Made by a program: the position numbers and the translations under genes. From assembly GCF_002894645.1 (NCBI RefSeq), contig NZ_NCQY01000002.1, positions 1 through 64,000 of the forward strand: a stretch of DNA of 64,000 nt, read 5' to 3'. The DNA comes from Salinibacter altiplanensis (lineage in GTDB: Bacteria; Bacteroidota; Rhodothermia; Rhodothermales; Salinibacteraceae). How positions within the stretch are numbered: the first letter of the stretch is position 1; each line of letters begins with the position of its first letter. Below the pieces are notes generated by a model. The model did no database searches. It was not told where the DNA came from and worked only from the letters and a program-made list of their open reading frames with translations. Of this stretch, positions 49,947-56,605 are shown piece by piece.

Positions 49947-50696
49947 TTATGGGGCCCCCGGGAGGCCCTTCTTGTCGTCGAGGGTGGGCAGGCGGTCGAG
50001 GAGTGACGACAGGGGGGGGTCGTGCCTTTCGGCGAATACCTCAAACGACACGTGGTCGCCGATGGTGTCGAGGGGACGGTGCTCCTCGATGACCGGGCGG
50101 TACGTCTCGTAGCAGTGGAGGGCCTCGCGCCCCGTCTCCAGGTCCTCGTCCCGAATTGGGAGCTGGCAGTCGATGAGCGCTGGGGGCGAGTGCGAAAGGT
50201 GGGCCGGCCGGTCTGCGTCGTCGGGAGCGGGAGAAAGCGCATAAAACGCAAGGCGACGCGGCGCGGCCGCTCCGTCCCTGCGGAGGGCACACACCGCACG
50301 CTTCACGACGGCGTGGGCGACGAGGTGGTCGGGGTGCCCGCTGATGCCGTGGACGGGATACGTGACGACCACGTCCGGCTCGTAGGTGTGAATGTACGAC
50401 ACGATCTCGTCCTCCAGGACCAGTGGGTTAAGCTCGGCAAGCCCCCCGTCCGGGTACTCCAACACCGTCAGGGAGTTGAGGTCCAGGGTGTCCGCCACGT
50501 CCTGCATCTCCTGGTAGCGCGCCGCCGCCATTTCGTCCTTCGAGTACCCGAGGCGCTCCCGCTGCGACGTTGCCTCCCCTCGGGTGAGGGTCAGCAGGTG
50601 CACCTCGTGGCCCGCGCGGCGCTGCCGGGCGAGGGCGGGCACTGGCCCGAAGCACTCGTCGTCGGGATGGGGAAAGATATACAATAGGGATGCCAT
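49947..50696 (-). CDS. PIG-L family deacetylase
   Basis: A 249-residue zinc-dependent N-acetylglucosaminyl deacetylase-type protein (LmbE). The metal-binding motif FPHPDDECFG and the second motif HGISGHPDHLVAHAV are both present. Family members deacetylate GlcNAc conjugates, including GlcNAc-malate in bacillithiol synthesis (BshB) or mycothiol-type precursors. Bacillithiol is known in some relatives, so BshB is a reasonable candidate, but the sequence alone does not settle it. The ATG at 50696 (MASLLYIFPHPDD) is chosen over the far upstream start at 50822. It lies 127 bases before the PhoR-like kinase on the same strand. Confidence 0.87.
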   Translation of the reverse strand: MASLLYIFPHPDDECFGPVPALARQRRAGHEVHLLTLTRGEATSQRERLGYSKDEMAAARYQEMQDVADTLDLNSLTVLEYPDGGLAELNPLVLEDEIVSYIHTYEPDVVVTYPVHGISGHPDHLVAHAVVKRAVCALRRDGAAAPRRLAFYALSPAPDDADRPAHLSHSPPALIDCQLPIRDEDLETGREALHCYETYRPVIEEHRPLDTIGDHVSFEVFAERHDPPLSSLLDRLPTLDDKKGLPGAP

Positions 50697-50817
50697 CGGG
50701 GCAAGAGACACGTTTTGAAAGACGACGCGCGTTCTCTTATGCACGAGTCGCCCGCTTGGTCGCCGCGACGGTGATGCAAGGGGCACTACGTAGGTCGGCA
50801 AAACAACTTTGAAACCC

Positions 50818-50989
50818 GTCATTCCGAGCAGAGCGAAGCGGAGTCGAGGCGCTGGGGGCGCAGTGACCGGGTGCTCCTGGAGTGAATCTCTCGGAAGAAG
50901 GGGGAGCGACCCCTATGAGCAGCTTCCGCTTGATTCAAAGAGATTTTTCAACGCCCTCCTCTCACTGTTCGGCGGTCGCTCAGAACGAC
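50818..50989. repeat. Palindromic intergenic repeat, copy B
   Basis: An element with inverted ends GTCATTCCGAG (50818-50828) and CTCAGAACGAC (50979-50989), containing AGCGAAGCGGAGTCGAG and GAATCTCTCGG. It is related to copy A at 34135-34240 by its ends and GAATCTC core. It occupies most of the gap 50697-51019, where I see no gene; 50697-50817 shows nothing else. Confidence 0.5.
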
Positions 50990-51019: not shown

Positions 51020-51250
51020 TTAGGATGAGGCAGGCCCTGCATCGGACTCCTCGTCCGCCTCGATCACCTCGTGGAAGACGGTCTGCCCCGTTTCTAGCAT
51101 CCGGTCCACGTAGGGATGGCAGAGCTCACAGTTTTCGCCGAAGGTGACGTGGGCCTGGAGCTCCTCAATCGAGTCCGCTCCCGTGTCTCCCGCCACTGTC
51201 TTCAGGGCCGTGAAGGTCTGCGCGTAGCAGTAGCAGCGATCGATGGTCAT
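51020..51250 (-). CDS. Small Cys-rich [2Fe-2S] BFD-like protein
   Basis: A 76-residue protein with a C-x-C pair (CYC, residues 6-8) and a C-x2-C pair (CELC), the spacing of BFD-type [2Fe-2S] domains, and a conserved helical segment between them. The tail is acidic. It is probably a cytoplasmic iron-sulfur or metal-binding partner. It is the last gene of the cobalamin operon, 26 bases after the BtuF-like gene, so it is expected to be controlled by the B12 riboswitch. A redox role in reducing imported corrinoid would fit but is an inference. Confidence 0.75.
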   Translation of the reverse strand: MTIDRCYCYAQTFTALKTVAGDTGADSIEELQAHVTFGENCELCHPYVDRMLETGQTVFHEVIEADEESDAGPASS

Positions 51251-51276
51251 TGTTGAAGGCTCGGGATGAAGAGCGA

Positions 51277-52221
51277 TTACCGAGTCGAGGCGGGAGCCGG
51301 GGCCGGGTCGCGCCGCCAGGCCGTTTTTCGATGAGAGCGATCGAACGCGGCGTGGAAGCGGTCCGGGTGGAGAATCTCGGCCAGAATGTCGAGGGAGGTT
51401 GCCAGCCGGGGCCCGGGCCGGTTAAAGAAGTGATTCCCGTCGGTCCGGTACACGTGGCCGGTCTGCACGGCCCGCAGGGCGGTCCACCGTGGGTCGGTCC
51501 GGAGACCGTCCATCTCTGCGTCCGTCCGCGACAGGCCAAACCCACACGCCATGACGACGATGCGGTCCGGGTCGGCGTCGTGCAGGGCGTCGAGGTCGGC
51601 GCGCCGTCGGGTGAAGACCGGCGTTCCGCCCGCCGCCTCCAGGAGCGTTGGGACCCAGCCCCCGGCCCCCATCAGCGGATCGATCCACTCCAGGGCCGCA
51701 ACGGTGGGGCGGTCGGACGAGTGGGCGGGGGCCACTACGCGCGACACCGCCCGCATGTGGGTTCGCATCTGCTGGACACACCGGTCGCCGCGGTCGGGGC
51801 AGCCGAGGGCCACGGCCACGCGCCGAATGTCACTGCGCACGTCCGCGAGGGACCGTGGCTCCAGGGCCATGACCGCCGGATTGCCCTCGATGCGGTCGGC
51901 CACCGCCTGCTCCACCGTTGACAGGGACACGGCGCACACCTCGCACTGCGATTGGGTGAGGATGAGGTCGGGCCGCAGGTCACTCAGCCGCTCCACGTCC
52001 ACGTCGTAGACCGACATCGCCTCGTCGAGTAGGGTCCGCACCCGGTCGTCAATCTCGCGGCTTGATCCCTCGAGCGGCACCTTCGGGGCGGTGAGGGCAG
52101 GCAGCGCCTCTACGCCGGGCGGGTGGTCGCATTCGTGCGAGCGGCCCACCAGGTCGTCCCCGTGGCCGAGGGCGACCACGATCTCGGTGGCGCTGGGGAT
52201 GAGGGACACAATGCGGGGCAT
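51277..52221 (-). CDS. BtuF-like cobalamin-binding protein lacking a signal peptide
   Basis: A 314-residue protein of the TroA-like helical-backbone binding fold. The N-terminal RIVSLIPSATEIVVALG, the first-lobe block DLRPDLILTQSQCEVCAV and the second-lobe MACGFGLSRTDAEMDGL match the cobalamin-binding subgroup (BtuF-like). The protein begins directly at the fold, without signal peptide or lipobox, so it appears cytoplasmic. Such signal-less BtuF relatives are known in other phyla. It is 21 bases after the membrane-protein gene and 26 bases before the Fe-S gene, in the B12-riboswitch operon. It may bind or hand on corrinoid inside the cell, or be exported by an unseen route. Confidence 0.87.
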   Translation of the reverse strand: MPRIVSLIPSATEIVVALGHGDDLVGRSHECDHPPGVEALPALTAPKVPLEGSSREIDDRVRTLLDEAMSVYDVDVERLSDLRPDLILTQSQCEVCAVSLSTVEQAVADRIEGNPAVMALEPRSLADVRSDIRRVAVALGCPDRGDRCVQQMRTHMRAVSRVVAPAHSSDRPTVAALEWIDPLMGAGGWVPTLLEAAGGTPVFTRRRADLDALHDADPDRIVVMACGFGLSRTDAEMDGLRTDPRWTALRAVQTGHVYRTDGNHFFNRPGPRLATSLDILAEILHPDRFHAAFDRSHRKTAWRRDPAPAPASTR

Positions 52222-52242
52222 GGGAGAGGAACGCGATGCGCA

Positions 52243-52782
52243 TTACGCCGAGGCGGACGCCGGGGCCGATCGAAGAGCGGGCACCGCCCGCTTCAGCAGG
52301 GCGACCCCGCCGAACAGCACGGTCACGTATACGGCGTTCCCCGCGAGGCTGTTGGCGAGGTACGGCAGGCCGGCGACGTAGCAGGCCCAGAGGCCGGCGG
52401 CCGTCGGCGGGTAGGTGTGGAACAGCCACCACATTCCGAAATTGGTGATCAGGAAGAAGAGCAGCGACCCGGCCACGGTGGCCCCGGCGACGCGCCCCAC
52501 GCTCCGGGTCGACCGCAGCCCGAAGCCGAGCAATCCAATGGCCGCAAAGCCGCCGTAGACGAACGGCACGAGCGCGTGGAAGCCGATCACGAGGTCGCCC
52601 AGCAGCAGGGCCACGAGGGCCACGCCGAGGCCCACCCATCGGTTCGCAAAGTGCGCCCCGCCGAACAGCGCCAGGGCGGCGATGGGCGTGACGTTGGGCG
52701 GGTGGGGCACTAGGCGGGCGGCCGCGGCGAGCAGGACGATGCCGGTGAGAACGGCGAAGCGGACAAGACGATCGCGAGACAT
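52243..52782 (-). CDS. DUF6580-like membrane protein, candidate cobalamin transport component
   Basis: A 179-residue integral membrane protein with about six hydrophobic segments. The pattern PPNVTPIAALALFGGAHFA, then LLGDLVIGFHALVPFVYGGF and FFLITNFGMWWLFHTYPPT with CYVAGLPYLANSLAGN, matches what I recall of the DUF6580 family, considered putative transporters. The size resembles an ECF substrate-specific (S) component. It is set between the BtuG-like lipoprotein gene and btuF in the riboswitch-controlled operon, so corrinoid transport across the inner membrane is the obvious hypothesis. No ATPase or T component lies nearby. ATG 52782 or the adjacent 52785 is the start; the upstream frame to 52965 is an extension over the neighbouring gene. 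Confidence 0.78.
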   Translation of the reverse strand: MSRDRLVRFAVLTGIVLLAAAARLVPHPPNVTPIAALALFGGAHFANRWVGLGVALVALLLGDLVIGFHALVPFVYGGFAAIGLLGFGLRSTRSVGRVAGATVAGSLLFFLITNFGMWWLFHTYPPTAAGLWACYVAGLPYLANSLAGNAVYVTVLFGGVALLKRAVPALRSAPASASA

Positions 52783-52831
52783 CATGGAAGCGTTGGGGAC
52801 GTGTGCGGGTGGAAACGGAGGCGCAGAGGGC

Positions 52832-54007
52832 CTACTGCTCATCGCGCAAGAAGGAAATGTGGCCCGGGCTATTCCCCGTTTCGAAGCGTGTGACTTCGTT
52901 TCCACTTCGGTCGAGGACGAGCGCGGTCCCGTCTGCCGAAAAGAGCGGTCCGCCAGCGTCGCCAATGGGAAGGCGTGTCACGTACAGGTCTTGCGTTACG
53001 TCGTCGTAGCCGACCGCCGTAATGCCAATCAGCCCGTCGTCCTGTGGAACTGTGAAGCTACCGTCCAGCGCGTTCGCGTCGGTATTGACCCGGAAGATCT
53101 CGCCGGTTCCGCTGCCAAATGCCCCGCTGCCGCTGATGGCGTACAGCTCCTCGGCTCCCTGCGAATAGTACGCTGACTGCGACCCGTTCGCCGAGCCAAT
53201 GGGGGCGCCGAGCGCCACGCGGTCCCTGATCGTCTCCTCGATCGGGTTCAAGAACAGCACCGTAGACGACTGTTCGGCCCCACCCTGGCACACCACGGCC
53301 ACGTCGTTTTCGGCATCCACAAATACGCTCTTCGGACCGGCACAGCCGGAGAAAGACAAGGTCGTATTTACGGTGTCGGCGTCCGCATCGAGCACCGAGA
53401 GGGTCCCGTCCGCGGCATTTGCCACGAACGCCTTTCCGGCGGCAACGCCGATGCCCTGTGGCGACCGTCCCACGTCGATTCGTTCCGTGACCGAGTTGTT
53501 GTTCAGGTCGACCACCGACACAGTGCTCGGCTTGGGATTGAAGTTTTCGTCGAAACGGCTGAGGTTGGAGACGTATCCCTTGTCCGCCGACGGAAACGCG
53601 ATATACCGTGGGGGGCGCGGGTTCGAGATTTGCCCAATTGGCCCGAACTGATCGGTGTCGAAGGTTGTGATTCGGCCGGCATTGTCGGCCTGCGTGTTGT
53701 CGACCACGAAGAGGCGGTCGTTGTGCAGGGCGAGGCTATTGATGAACGCCACGTTGATGTCATTAAGTGTGGCCGTGGAGTCTGATGGGCTGTAGAGCGT
53801 GAGGGAGCCGTCCTGGGCACTGAAGTTGCCCGAGTTGGCAATTACCACGTCCGTGGTTATCTGGCGTGTGTCATCATTCGAGCCGAAGAGGTCGCAGCCC
53901 GTCAGCGACAGCGTAGCGACGGCCAGGAGGGCCATCCACACAGCTGGCCGGCGCCACCGCACGTTCAGACGAGATGTAGGAGCGGAGGAGGAAGAGAAGC
54001 GCATCAT
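52832..54007 (-). CDS. Beta-propeller lipoprotein, BtuG-like (DUF5074/YncE type)
   Basis: A 391-residue exported lipoprotein: signal peptide ending in SLTGC (Cys about residue 38), an acidic linker, then a seven-bladed propeller. The opening VVIANSGNFSAQDGSLTLY and the repeated blades with KAFVANAADGTLSVLDAD are typical of DUF5074/YncE propellers. In Bacteroides, BtuG is a surface lipoprotein of this kind that binds B12 very tightly and caps BtuB. Here the gene directly follows the BtuB-type receptor (9-base gap) and is under the same cobalamin riboswitch. The functional assignment rests on fold plus context. Some Cys and aromatic residues differ from what I would need to judge binding strength. 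Confidence 0.85.
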   Translation of the reverse strand: MMRFSSSSAPTSRLNVRWRRPAVWMALLAVATLSLTGCDLFGSNDDTRQITTDVVIANSGNFSAQDGSLTLYSPSDSTATLNDINVAFINSLALHNDRLFVVDNTQADNAGRITTFDTDQFGPIGQISNPRPPRYIAFPSADKGYVSNLSRFDENFNPKPSTVSVVDLNNNSVTERIDVGRSPQGIGVAAGKAFVANAADGTLSVLDADADTVNTTLSFSGCAGPKSVFVDAENDVAVVCQGGAEQSSTVLFLNPIEETIRDRVALGAPIGSANGSQSAYYSQGAEELYAISGSGAFGSGTGEIFRVNTDANALDGSFTVPQDDGLIGITAVGYDDVTQDLYVTRLPIGDAGGPLFSADGTALVLDRSGNEVTRFETGNSPGHISFLRDEQ

Positions 54008-54016
54008 CGATTGAGT

Positions 54017-55993
54017 TCAAGAAGAAGGAAGAGAAAACCGAAGTCGGAGGGTTGCGTGGCGGGGGGGCATGGGATAGAGCCGTATAATCTCGTAGCGGCG
54101 GTCGAGCACGTTTTTGACCTGCGCCTCCAGGGCGAGCCGCCCTGTATTGAACGACCACTCGTAGGCGGCCCGGACGTCGACCGTCTGGTACGGCGCGAGA
54201 GACTTGGACTCGTCGCTTGAATAAAAGCGGGTCCCCACGAGCCGACCCGTGGCGGAGACCGATAGTCCTCGCCATTCCATGCGGGACCAGAGCTTCCACG
54301 TCTGCTGGGGGACGTAGGGCAGTTGAGCGCCGTAGGCCGGCGAGTTGGGATTCGCCCGGTTTTCGGCCCGGGTGTGTGTGAAGTGGCTGCCGCCGGACAC
54401 CGTAAGGTTGGGCCGGAACTGGCGCCGGGCCCGCACGCTCAGCTCCAGGCCCCGGCTGTAGACGCGGGACACATTGGACGGGCTCCACACCTGCACGCCG
54501 TTGATCTCGTAGCTGGGCCGCCACACAATCTTGTCGGTGAGGCGCGTGGCAAACGCCGTGGCCTCCGCGGTGAGCAGGGCGTCGGCGCGGGTGAGGCGGA
54601 AAGACACGCCGCCCTCTGTGGTCCACCCATCCTCGGGCTGGAGGCCAGGGGTGCCCCCCGGCTCGTAGTAGCGCTCGTTGAAGGTGGGATAGCGAAAGGC
54701 GCGCCCCACGAGGCCGCGGAGGGTGAGACGGTCTCCGTCGAGCGGCCGCCAACGAACGCCGAGGCGGGGGCTCGGCACGACGGTCGGCTCCCCGTTCGCG
54801 CCAATGGCGTCGAGCCGCACCGCCGGCTGGAGCTCAAACGGTGCGAATGAGAGCGTGGCATCCACGAACGTGGCCCCCGACAGGCGGTCGACGCCCTCGT
54901 TCAGGGAGGCCTGGTCGTAGCCGACCGTGGTGCCCGCCGTGATTGACCCGAGGGACGAAAGGGGATAGCGCAACTCGGCGTTCGCCTCCGTGGCCGTCGT
55001 GACGGTCGTGCGGTCGGTTTGGGTCGGGGGATTGTGGTAGCGGAGGCGGGAGCGCTGGCCCCGTGCCGAGAGGTCGAGGGTGCCCCTGCCCAATGGCAAG
55101 GTGCCTTCGGTCCAGATCCGCCCCAGCTCGTCCCACTGACGGGCCCCGCCGCTGCGTGCGCTGGCCGGACCCGGAAGGCCGCGCCGCGCCTTTGTCCACC
55201 ACCCGGACAGGCGCCACTGCCGGTCCTCGCCCCGCCACATGCCCCGCCCGAAGAGGCTCAGCGTGCGCGCCCCGGCCCCGTCCCGTCGCAGCGTCTGTGA
55301 GGGGACCAGGAACGAGTTTTGGTACTGAAAGTCGCCGTCCGTGCGGTAGTAGCGCCCCGCGACCAGCCCGGACCAGGAGCCCCGCCCGCCCGTTGCGAGG
55401 GCCGACACGTGCCGTTCGTCGTACGCGCCCCCGCCCCCCGCCACGCGGAGGAGCGGATCGGTCTGTGGGCGCAGCGTGCGGAGGTGCACGGTGCCGCCCA
55501 GACTCCCGGAGCCGTGCCGGGCCGATCCGGCCCCGTGCTGCACCTCGACCGACTCGATGAGGAGGGTGGGGAGCAGCGACAGGTCTACCTGGCCCGTTTG
55601 CGGGTTGGCAACGCGAAGGCCGTCGAGCAGCACCTGCGTCTGCGTGCCGCCCATGCCCCGCATCGAGAGGCTGGCGAGACCCGTGCTTCCGTACTGCTTT
55701 ACAAAGGCCCCGGAGCGCATCGATAGCAGGTCGGCCACCGACTGCGCGCCGCTCTCGGCCACGGCGTCCGCGTCGAGGGTCGTGACGTGGGCGGCCGCGG
55801 GGATGGAGGAGGCGCGATCCAGAATGCCCTCTACAGTCACTTCGGGAAGGGTTACGGACATCGCGATGGACGAGTCCGGCGTCCCCGAAACGACCGGCGG
55901 GCGCCACGTCGTGTCGGCGGGGGCGGACCCCTGGCCCCACGCAGAGAGGGGCAGAAGGAGGACCGAAGCGAGAAGTACGACGCGTGCAACCAT
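54017..55993 (-). CDS. btuB: BtuB-type TonB-dependent vitamin B12 receptor
   Basis: A 658-residue outer-membrane receptor. Signal peptide at 1-20 (ending SAWGQ), a TonB-box-like stretch (LPEVTVEG) at about 48-56, plug domain (about 60-170) with SLSMRGMGGTQTQVLLDGLR, then a beta barrel. The size and plug are typical of BtuB rather than the larger siderophore receptors. It is the first gene after the cobalamin riboswitch, which gives strong independent support for a corrinoid ligand. The ATG at 55993 lies 224 bases after the aptamer's 3' end; the intervening leader can hold the expression platform. The last residues (LRLRFSLPSS) lack a terminal Phe. Confidence 0.92.
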   Translation of the reverse strand: MVARVVLLASVLLLPLSAWGQGSAPADTTWRPPVVSGTPDSSIAMSVTLPEVTVEGILDRASSIPAAAHVTTLDADAVAESGAQSVADLLSMRSGAFVKQYGSTGLASLSMRGMGGTQTQVLLDGLRVANPQTGQVDLSLLPTLLIESVEVQHGAGSARHGSGSLGGTVHLRTLRPQTDPLLRVAGGGGAYDERHVSALATGGRGSWSGLVAGRYYRTDGDFQYQNSFLVPSQTLRRDGAGARTLSLFGRGMWRGEDRQWRLSGWWTKARRGLPGPASARSGGARQWDELGRIWTEGTLPLGRGTLDLSARGQRSRLRYHNPPTQTDRTTVTTATEANAELRYPLSSLGSITAGTTVGYDQASLNEGVDRLSGATFVDATLSFAPFELQPAVRLDAIGANGEPTVVPSPRLGVRWRPLDGDRLTLRGLVGRAFRYPTFNERYYEPGGTPGLQPEDGWTTEGGVSFRLTRADALLTAEATAFATRLTDKIVWRPSYEINGVQVWSPSNVSRVYSRGLELSVRARRQFRPNLTVSGGSHFTHTRAENRANPNSPAYGAQLPYVPQQTWKLWSRMEWRGLSVSATGRLVGTRFYSSDESKSLAPYQTVDVRAAYEWSFNTGRLALEAQVKNVLDRRYEIIRLYPMPPRHATLRLRFSLPSS

Positions 55994-56216
55994 AGAAAAA
56001 GCCCTTACCTCCGCAGAGAGGCTCGGGCGGCTGCACGGGACCCACGAAATGCACCCCGGTGTCCACTACAGAAGGGATAGACGGGGCTGTGTCGGCGTCC
56101 GCCACGGGGGAGACGCGTCGAGCGACGAGGGCCATCATCAGGGCAGGCACGCCACAAGCCTCAGATCCCGGAGGTTGTTGGCGGTGAGAGAATCCACGAT
56201 GGCGGTCGGGATTCCC

Positions 56217-56553
56217 GTCACGCACACAGGCAGGTCTCCTGGCTCCTCGAACCCACGGGCCGCAGAGAACGCGGCATCGCGTGGTCGACGCACATGCGTG
56301 GCGATCCTCCTTCCCGCCACGACGAGCTGTCCCGACGGCCGTTGCCGGGAGCACTCGGTCGGGCAGTGGCGAATCGCCTCCAGCGCACGTCCATTGTTCG
56401 AGTCACAGTTGCGGGTACAGCCCCAGACTGGCCCCGGCGGATGACTGAGTGGAGCGGCAAAACGATGTCAGTCCCTCAGGGTGTACCGTGGCGGCACTGG
56501 GGTTCCCTTTTCATCTCGCCCGGCAAGCACTGGGCGAGAACCTGTGACGTGTG
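56217..56553 (-). promoter_or_regulatory. Cobalamin riboswitch (AdoCbl-type aptamer)
   Basis: On the minus strand the aptamer's hallmark pieces occur in order: AAAAGGGAACCCCAGTG, then CCCGCAACTGTGA (56403-56415), GCCACTG (56364-56370), GGGAAGG (56309-56315) and the B12 box AGCCAGGAGACCTGCC (56229-56244). The ends CACACGTCACAGG (56541-56553) and CCTGTGTGCGTGA pair as P1. It lies in the leader of the btuB operon. High cobalamin should reduce expression of the five genes. The expression platform between 56216 and the btuB ATG was not resolved. Confidence 0.95.
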
Positions 56554-56576
56554 TAAAAGAACAGGCTTCAAGTACA

Positions 56577-56605
56577 GTTTTAATGTAGACGCTCGGCGTG
56601 GTCAA
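56577..56605 (-). promoter_or_regulatory. Candidate sigma70-like promoter of the cobalamin operon
   Basis: On the minus strand TTGACC (56600-56605) and TAAAAC (56577-56582) are separated by 17 bases. Transcription would start near 56570, about 15 bases before the riboswitch P1. The -35 is 5/6 and the -10 is 4/6 matching consensus. Confidence 0.4.

Follow-up and report, generated by a model that had tools for sequence, protein, structure and literature searches.

A cobalamin-riboswitch operon in Salinibacter altiplanensis with a BtuB–BtuG-type surface pair and a candidate inner-membrane corrinoid carrier

Background

The closest described relatives of the operon reported here are the BtuB2G2 and BtuB3G3 systems of Bacteroides thetaiotaomicron, in which a receptor gene is followed by one for a seven-bladed propeller lipoprotein, within an operon under cobalamin-riboswitch control (PMC10404256, PMC6143338). 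The propeller, BtuG, has been stated to occur only in Bacteroidetes (PMC6143338). What happens at the inner membrane is a wider problem, since BtuB without BtuCDF is found in many Gram-negative bacteria that depend on B12, and for most of these the inner-membrane step is unidentified (PMC6072759). One described solution is BtuM of Thiobacillus denitrificans, a small membrane protein with the fold of an ECF S-component, whose gene is co-located with btuB in genomes that mostly have neither an ECF module nor BtuCD (PMC6072759). Two further proteins serve as points of reference: E. coli BtuF, a Peripla_BP_2 protein from a B12 operon, and Bfd, the bacterioferritin-associated ferredoxin, which is small and leaderless and carries a CxC + CxxC [2Fe-2S] motif. 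The titles and abstracts that make up most of the BtuG literature consulted mention no work on the protein in the order of our organism, and a search for papers on DUF6580, the membrane protein at the center of this account, found none.

A riboswitch-led operon

The window, the whole 64,000-nucleotide stretch of S. altiplanensis DNA that was analyzed, carries these features on its minus strand, listed in the direction of reading:

56212..56559, minus strand: cobalamin riboswitch aptamer (RF00174; 57.9 bits, E 9.1e-12, model positions 1-189)
54017..55993, minus strand: btuB, TonB-dependent receptor with plug and barrel, 658 aa (Pfam Plug and TonB_dep_Rec)
52832..54007, minus strand: btuG-like seven-bladed propeller, predicted lipoprotein (LTGC), 391 aa (profile, AF2 model, tree)
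52243..52785, minus strand: DUF6580 membrane protein, 180 aa (Pfam PF20221, E 2.2e-54)
51277..52221, minus strand: BtuF-like Peripla_BP_2 protein with no signal peptide, 314 aa (Pfam, E 2.6e-24)
51020..51250, minus strand: BFD-type [2Fe-2S] protein with no signal peptide, 76 aa, CxC-x32-CxxC (Fer2_BFD, 26.3 bits)

The aptamer lies well above the RF00174 gathering score of 31.5 bits, with all 189 model positions matched, and in a genome-wide covariance-model search it is the only one over the cut-off. Behind it the genes follow one another with gaps of 9, 46, 21 and 26 bases. An earlier sequence-only reading had proposed an aptamer and five tightly spaced genes between 51,020 and 56,605; both aptamer and genes are real, with the correction that the aptamer ends at 56,559, making 56,605 slightly too far upstream. 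Scans for a promoter or an intrinsic terminator at the locus gave no more than shuffled sequence did. The 601-nucleotide leader folds mildly more stably than its shuffles (z -2.3), and the fold does not delineate an expression platform. After the BFD gene comes one for a PIG-L deacetylase (window 49947-50822), which occupies the same place in many relatives and is perhaps just a conserved neighborhood.

Our main reading, to which we give a probability of about 70%, is that this unit is a corrinoid import operon controlled by a cobalamin riboswitch, with a BtuB–BtuG surface pair and DUF6580 as its carrier.

DUF6580, a candidate carrier at the inner membrane

The AF2 model of DUF6580 (pLDDT 91) is that of a six-helix ECF S-component. 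Its best VIA-align match is BtuM with bound cyanocobalamin (Z 13.7, rmsd 3.0 over 160 residues), and every one of the first 20 rows is an ECF S-component or CbiM (Z 9.5-13.7), the next unrelated row scoring 7.0; it is not unusual, though, for helical bundles to score near 13. Foldseek also puts an S-component first, weakly (E 0.85). A DUF6580 profile found no match among PDB sequences at E up to 10, so the fold is assigned from the predicted model. The most conserved residues in DUF6580 are R24, H28, D64 and Y77. Sequence similarity to BtuM is undetectable, and BtuM is a protein of Proteobacteria, whereas DUF6580 belongs to Bacteroidota-level taxa. BtuM also needs its cobalt ligand Cys80 (PMC6072759), which has no invariant counterpart in DUF6580: a search through 23 of these proteins for an invariant cysteine found none. 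We therefore do not file DUF6580 as a BtuM, and propose instead that it works like one.

Two patterns across the phylum bear on this proposal. The first is linkage to the riboswitch. Our sample comprised 247 genomes, 97 of which have DUF6580 over the cut-off. Genomes for which a riboswitch is listed contain 57 DUF6580 genes, and at least 19 of these have a same-strand riboswitch no more than 5 kb upstream, a lower bound because weaker riboswitch matches fall outside the listed set. Three DUF6580 genes are the very first behind a riboswitch, at about 165 nt; in one case the riboswitch is on the opposite strand. At three loci (L122, L123 and L124, in genomes G224, G296 and G332) DUF6580 sits between tandem cobalamin riboswitches, one before it and the next after, and at L122 and L124 the second of these precedes btuB-btuG.

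The second pattern is mutual exclusion with FecCD, the permease family of BtuC. Across the 247 genomes, 80 have DUF6580 only, 149 true FecCD only, 17 both and 1 neither (Fisher 1e-46, a value inflated by shared ancestry, in a family that also includes iron and heme permeases). This count scores 14 weak FecCD matches as absent; scored as present, they change it to 66, 149, 31 and 1. Switches between the two occur within families (f18/g57, f21/G115, f22/G320), and two genomes without FecCD (G128 and G179) have the order riboswitch-btuB-btuG-BFD-DUF6580. EcfT is absent from 90 of the 97 DUF6580 genomes and present in 7; the S. altiplanensis genome has no EcfT/CbiQ. The DUF6580/FecCD pattern reads most simply as the replacement of BtuCD by a solitary, non-orthologous carrier of S-component type. 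On balance we favor the view that DUF6580, as modeled, is such a corrinoid importer and has taken the place of BtuCD in roughly one in three of the phylum genomes sampled. Across much of the phylum it is probably the B12 importer of the inner membrane that has long been missing: FecCD exclusion, riboswitch control and the S-component fold together make it a concrete candidate for that role in a large group of environmental bacteria.

Within the order the picture is more complicated. DUF6580 occurs in 12 of 114 genomes, and a FecCD gene in nearly every one, those lacking DUF6580 included. The genome studied here (G000) itself has two FecCD permeases, on contigs C19 and C29. The one on C19 was considered as a BtuC and rejected, being part of a heme operon that also encodes a HemS protein; the one on C29 adjoins a Peripla_BP_2 gene. 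With two FecCD permeases kept, DUF6580 may be one of two routes. It is also conceivable that the surface pair imports the corrinoid, the C29 permease and its Peripla_BP_2 partner carry out the inner-membrane step, and DUF6580 has an accessory role, such as sensing or processing the corrinoid. The adjoining gene pair and the near-universal FecCD of the order speak for this arrangement, as does the occurrence of the S-component fold in sensory receptors (PMC11109136). It leaves unexplained the 80 of 247 genomes that have DUF6580 and no true FecCD, the single genome devoid of both, and the direct riboswitch control of DUF6580 as a first gene, and we regard it as unlikely.

The surface pair

The closest solved chains to the receptor are all from B. 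thetaiotaomicron, where these BtuBs have BtuG partners: BtuB2, BtuB3 (two entries) and BtuB1 take the top four places in a PDB chain search (E 5e-43 to 4e-32), and E. coli BtuB ranks next (E 5e-12). Among curated families the NCBIfam BtuB equivalog TIGR01779 scores best, at 126.8 bits against a cut-off of 599.7, in a comparison run on the window receptor. With BtuBs as its nearest characterized relatives, this TonB-dependent receptor is BtuB-like.

For the propeller we built a profile from 35 members of the order. It matches all solved BtuG chains in the PDB at full length (E 3e-26 to 8e-31), with non-BtuG propellers at E 3e-10 or weaker and YncE at 2e-9; the exception is 1l0q, which scores highly through repeated local blades alone. 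The AF2 model (pLDDT 90) retrieves exclusively BtuG structures in the first 14 rows from Foldseek, and the top 11 VIA-align entries are all BtuG at Z 33-35. In a tree, a split supported at 99/99 separates solved BtuGs and locus propellers from the genomes' own YncE-like paralogues. Profile, fold, tree and operon context lead us to name the protein a BtuG homologue. The alternative of a generic YncE protein was rejected by profile search, VIA-align and tree. The surface pair which that reading had proposed is borne out by the agreement of PDB profile search, predicted fold, tree, closest solved receptors and operon context.

The solved BtuG chains are the top full-length matches in both profile and structure, at an identity of only about 16-22%, and there are further departures from the Bacteroides pairs: an invariant cysteine pair, an added BFD protein and no BtuH. 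The lipobox LTGC is present in the window propeller, and the stretch CDLFGSNDD is acidic without being the classical Bacteroides export signal. The cysteines, C222 and C240, are invariant in the 35 order members and absent from BtuG2 and BtuG3; in these Rhodothermales-type propellers they likely form a disulfide. In the profile alignment, BtuG2 W194 corresponds to A198, Y316 to a non-aromatic residue and Y335 to F356, while W272 aligns only roughly. The BtuG2 cavity is narrowed by three aromatics, of which two thus have no aromatic counterpart and the third is aligned only roughly. The β5A-loop region is shorter in the window protein.

By analogy with BtuG, the propeller may capture B12 tightly, with cavity aromatics that are mostly not conserved. 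The same differences can be taken to mean that propeller and receptor import something else, either a non-B12 corrinoid (an incomplete or unusual cobamide, or a precursor) or another tetrapyrrole, and that the femtomolar B12 capture of BtuG-type proteins does not apply. The non-aromatic counterparts of Trp194 and Tyr316 throughout the clade, the shortened loop region and the invariant cysteine pair would fit that idea. Yet riboswitch, BtuB grouping and tree all indicate a corrinoid. BtuG2 makes its 13 hydrogen bonds to the corrin side chains from blades 1-4 and binds many corrinoids (PMC10404256), and BtuG3, also lacking Trp272, nonetheless binds cyanocobalamin. We judge a ligand of this other kind to be improbable, and keep to a BtuG homologue that would capture corrinoids including B12.

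Distribution and delivery to the surface

A scan of contigs with the single propeller sequence recovered two close relatives alone. A propeller match is present in 87 of the 114 genomes of the order, and RF00174 exceeds its cut-off in 96. In all but one (73) of the 74 cases where propeller and riboswitch share a contig, the two are on one strand and the riboswitch precedes the propeller by 1.8-2.8 kb, a distance equal to the length of btuB, and btuB stands directly upstream of the propeller in all 40 neighborhoods that we read. The order riboswitch-btuB-propeller-BFD is repeated across these genomes, so the arrangement in the window is not a matter of chance.

The sequence-only reading had presented the operon as an extension of surface capture to an extreme halophile, valuable where corrinoid is scarce in brine. 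That view is not supported: the whole order shares the unit, which is also found in other parts of the phylum, so a shortage in brine has no specific explanatory value. The range of BtuG is extended to this order, which falls in the same phylum-level group as Bacteroidetes, and capture of the BtuG type at the surface is no adaptation to the gut.

Most propellers of the order have a lipobox. At least seven have instead an ordinary-looking signal peptide and a C-terminal type A sorting domain of the type IX secretion system (T9SS; TIGR04183 over its curated cut-off), so that in some members, unlike the Bacteroides pairs, a T9SS tail replaces the lipid anchor. These tailed homologues without a lipobox are at L052, L055, L061, L062, L067, L077 and L078; the four placed in the tree form one clade (support 98/91). 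Lipid anchor and T9SS both end at the cell surface, which gives independent support for a surface function. BtuG-type capture, it appears, can be delivered by either means.

The leaderless BtuF-like protein

The fourth gene had been taken for a BtuF that completes an uptake operon. Its open reading frame is already the longest possible and begins at the domain start (MPRIVSLIPSATEIV), with no room for a leader. Lacking a signal peptide, the protein is probably cytosolic, in contrast to E. coli BtuF, and the locus encodes no BtuC or BtuD, the ABC permease and ATPase with which BtuF would work. The operon is in this sense not a complete BtuCDF-type one, and DUF6580 is the likelier inner-membrane carrier. 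Leaderless BtuF-like relatives also follow DUF6580 at L129 and L130, in distant taxa, and in the window clade the two genes occur together between btuG and BFD and are both missing from the otherwise similar L079. It is plausible, judging by these sequences, that the BtuF-like protein is a cytosolic acceptor that traps imported corrinoid. The layout favored earlier, a periplasmic BtuF feeding a BtuCD encoded elsewhere with DUF6580 incidental, has in its favor the Peripla_BP_2 family membership and a weak match to BtuF models, and is very improbable given the missing leader, the leaderless relatives in distant taxa and a locus without ABC genes.

A Diphthami_syn_2 gene lies near btuB-DUF6580 at L129, L130, L131 and L139, at the first two next or close to the leaderless BtuF-like gene; it is possibly a further corrinoid gene.

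A [2Fe-2S] protein as a core member

The last protein of the operon just exceeds the Fer2_BFD cut-off (26 bits), and its best PDB match has an E of only 0.25. Its four cysteines (CxC + CxxC) are invariant in 29 BFD homologues. In the order, the family is tied to btuB-btuG operons and not, as Bfd is, to bacterioferritin: the BFD gene comes after the propeller in 67 cases out of 84, and in a further five it is found 2-3.4 kb downstream of a riboswitch. This linkage to both propeller and riboswitch makes it a core member of the regulon, the third of the operon order-wide, and gives an unstudied [2Fe-2S] protein the standing of a core partner of B12 uptake in one order. Two genomes, G105 and G107 (L135, L136), have riboswitch-btuB-BFD with no propeller detected. 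The BFD gene thus persists there where BtuG is missing or unrecognizable. The protein probably serves electron transfer in corrinoid reduction, the least certain step of the mechanism set out below.

A proposed pathway

From the computed aptamer, operon order, family and fold assignments, riboswitch linkage and FecCD exclusion we infer how regulation, ligand binding, transport, trapping and electron transfer might proceed in the window operon. At low intracellular cobalamin the leader would permit expression. The lipid-anchored propeller, seated on the BtuB-like receptor, would act as a corrinoid-capturing lid and pass its ligand to BtuB, which would move it to the periplasm with energy from TonB. 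DUF6580, a solitary carrier in the manner of BtuM, would then take the corrinoid across the inner membrane with neither BtuCD nor an ECF module. In the cytosol the leaderless BtuF-like protein would probably receive or trap it, and the BFD-type protein would probably give electrons for reductive processing of the cobalt. The three inner steps taken together, DUF6580 import, cytosolic trapping and cobalt reduction by BFD, are a tentative proposal that we would sooner bet against than for.

B12 demand and other aptamers

The genome encodes an AdoCbl-dependent class II ribonucleotide reductase (TIGR02504, 435 bits against a curated cut-off of 400), so it uses AdoCbl. It also has a class I enzyme. 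Weak RF00174 matches on contigs C3 and C21 were considered as further btu loci and rejected, being AdoCbl-II aptamers (RF01689, 40.8 and 43.7 bits; L148, G000:C3:459800-464500, and L150, G000:C21:67500-72500) that precede the class II ribonucleotide reductase and class I nrdBA. Each of the two reductases is thus behind an AdoCbl-II aptamer, and control of a B12-dependent enzyme by a B12 riboswitch would be unexpected if the switch represses.
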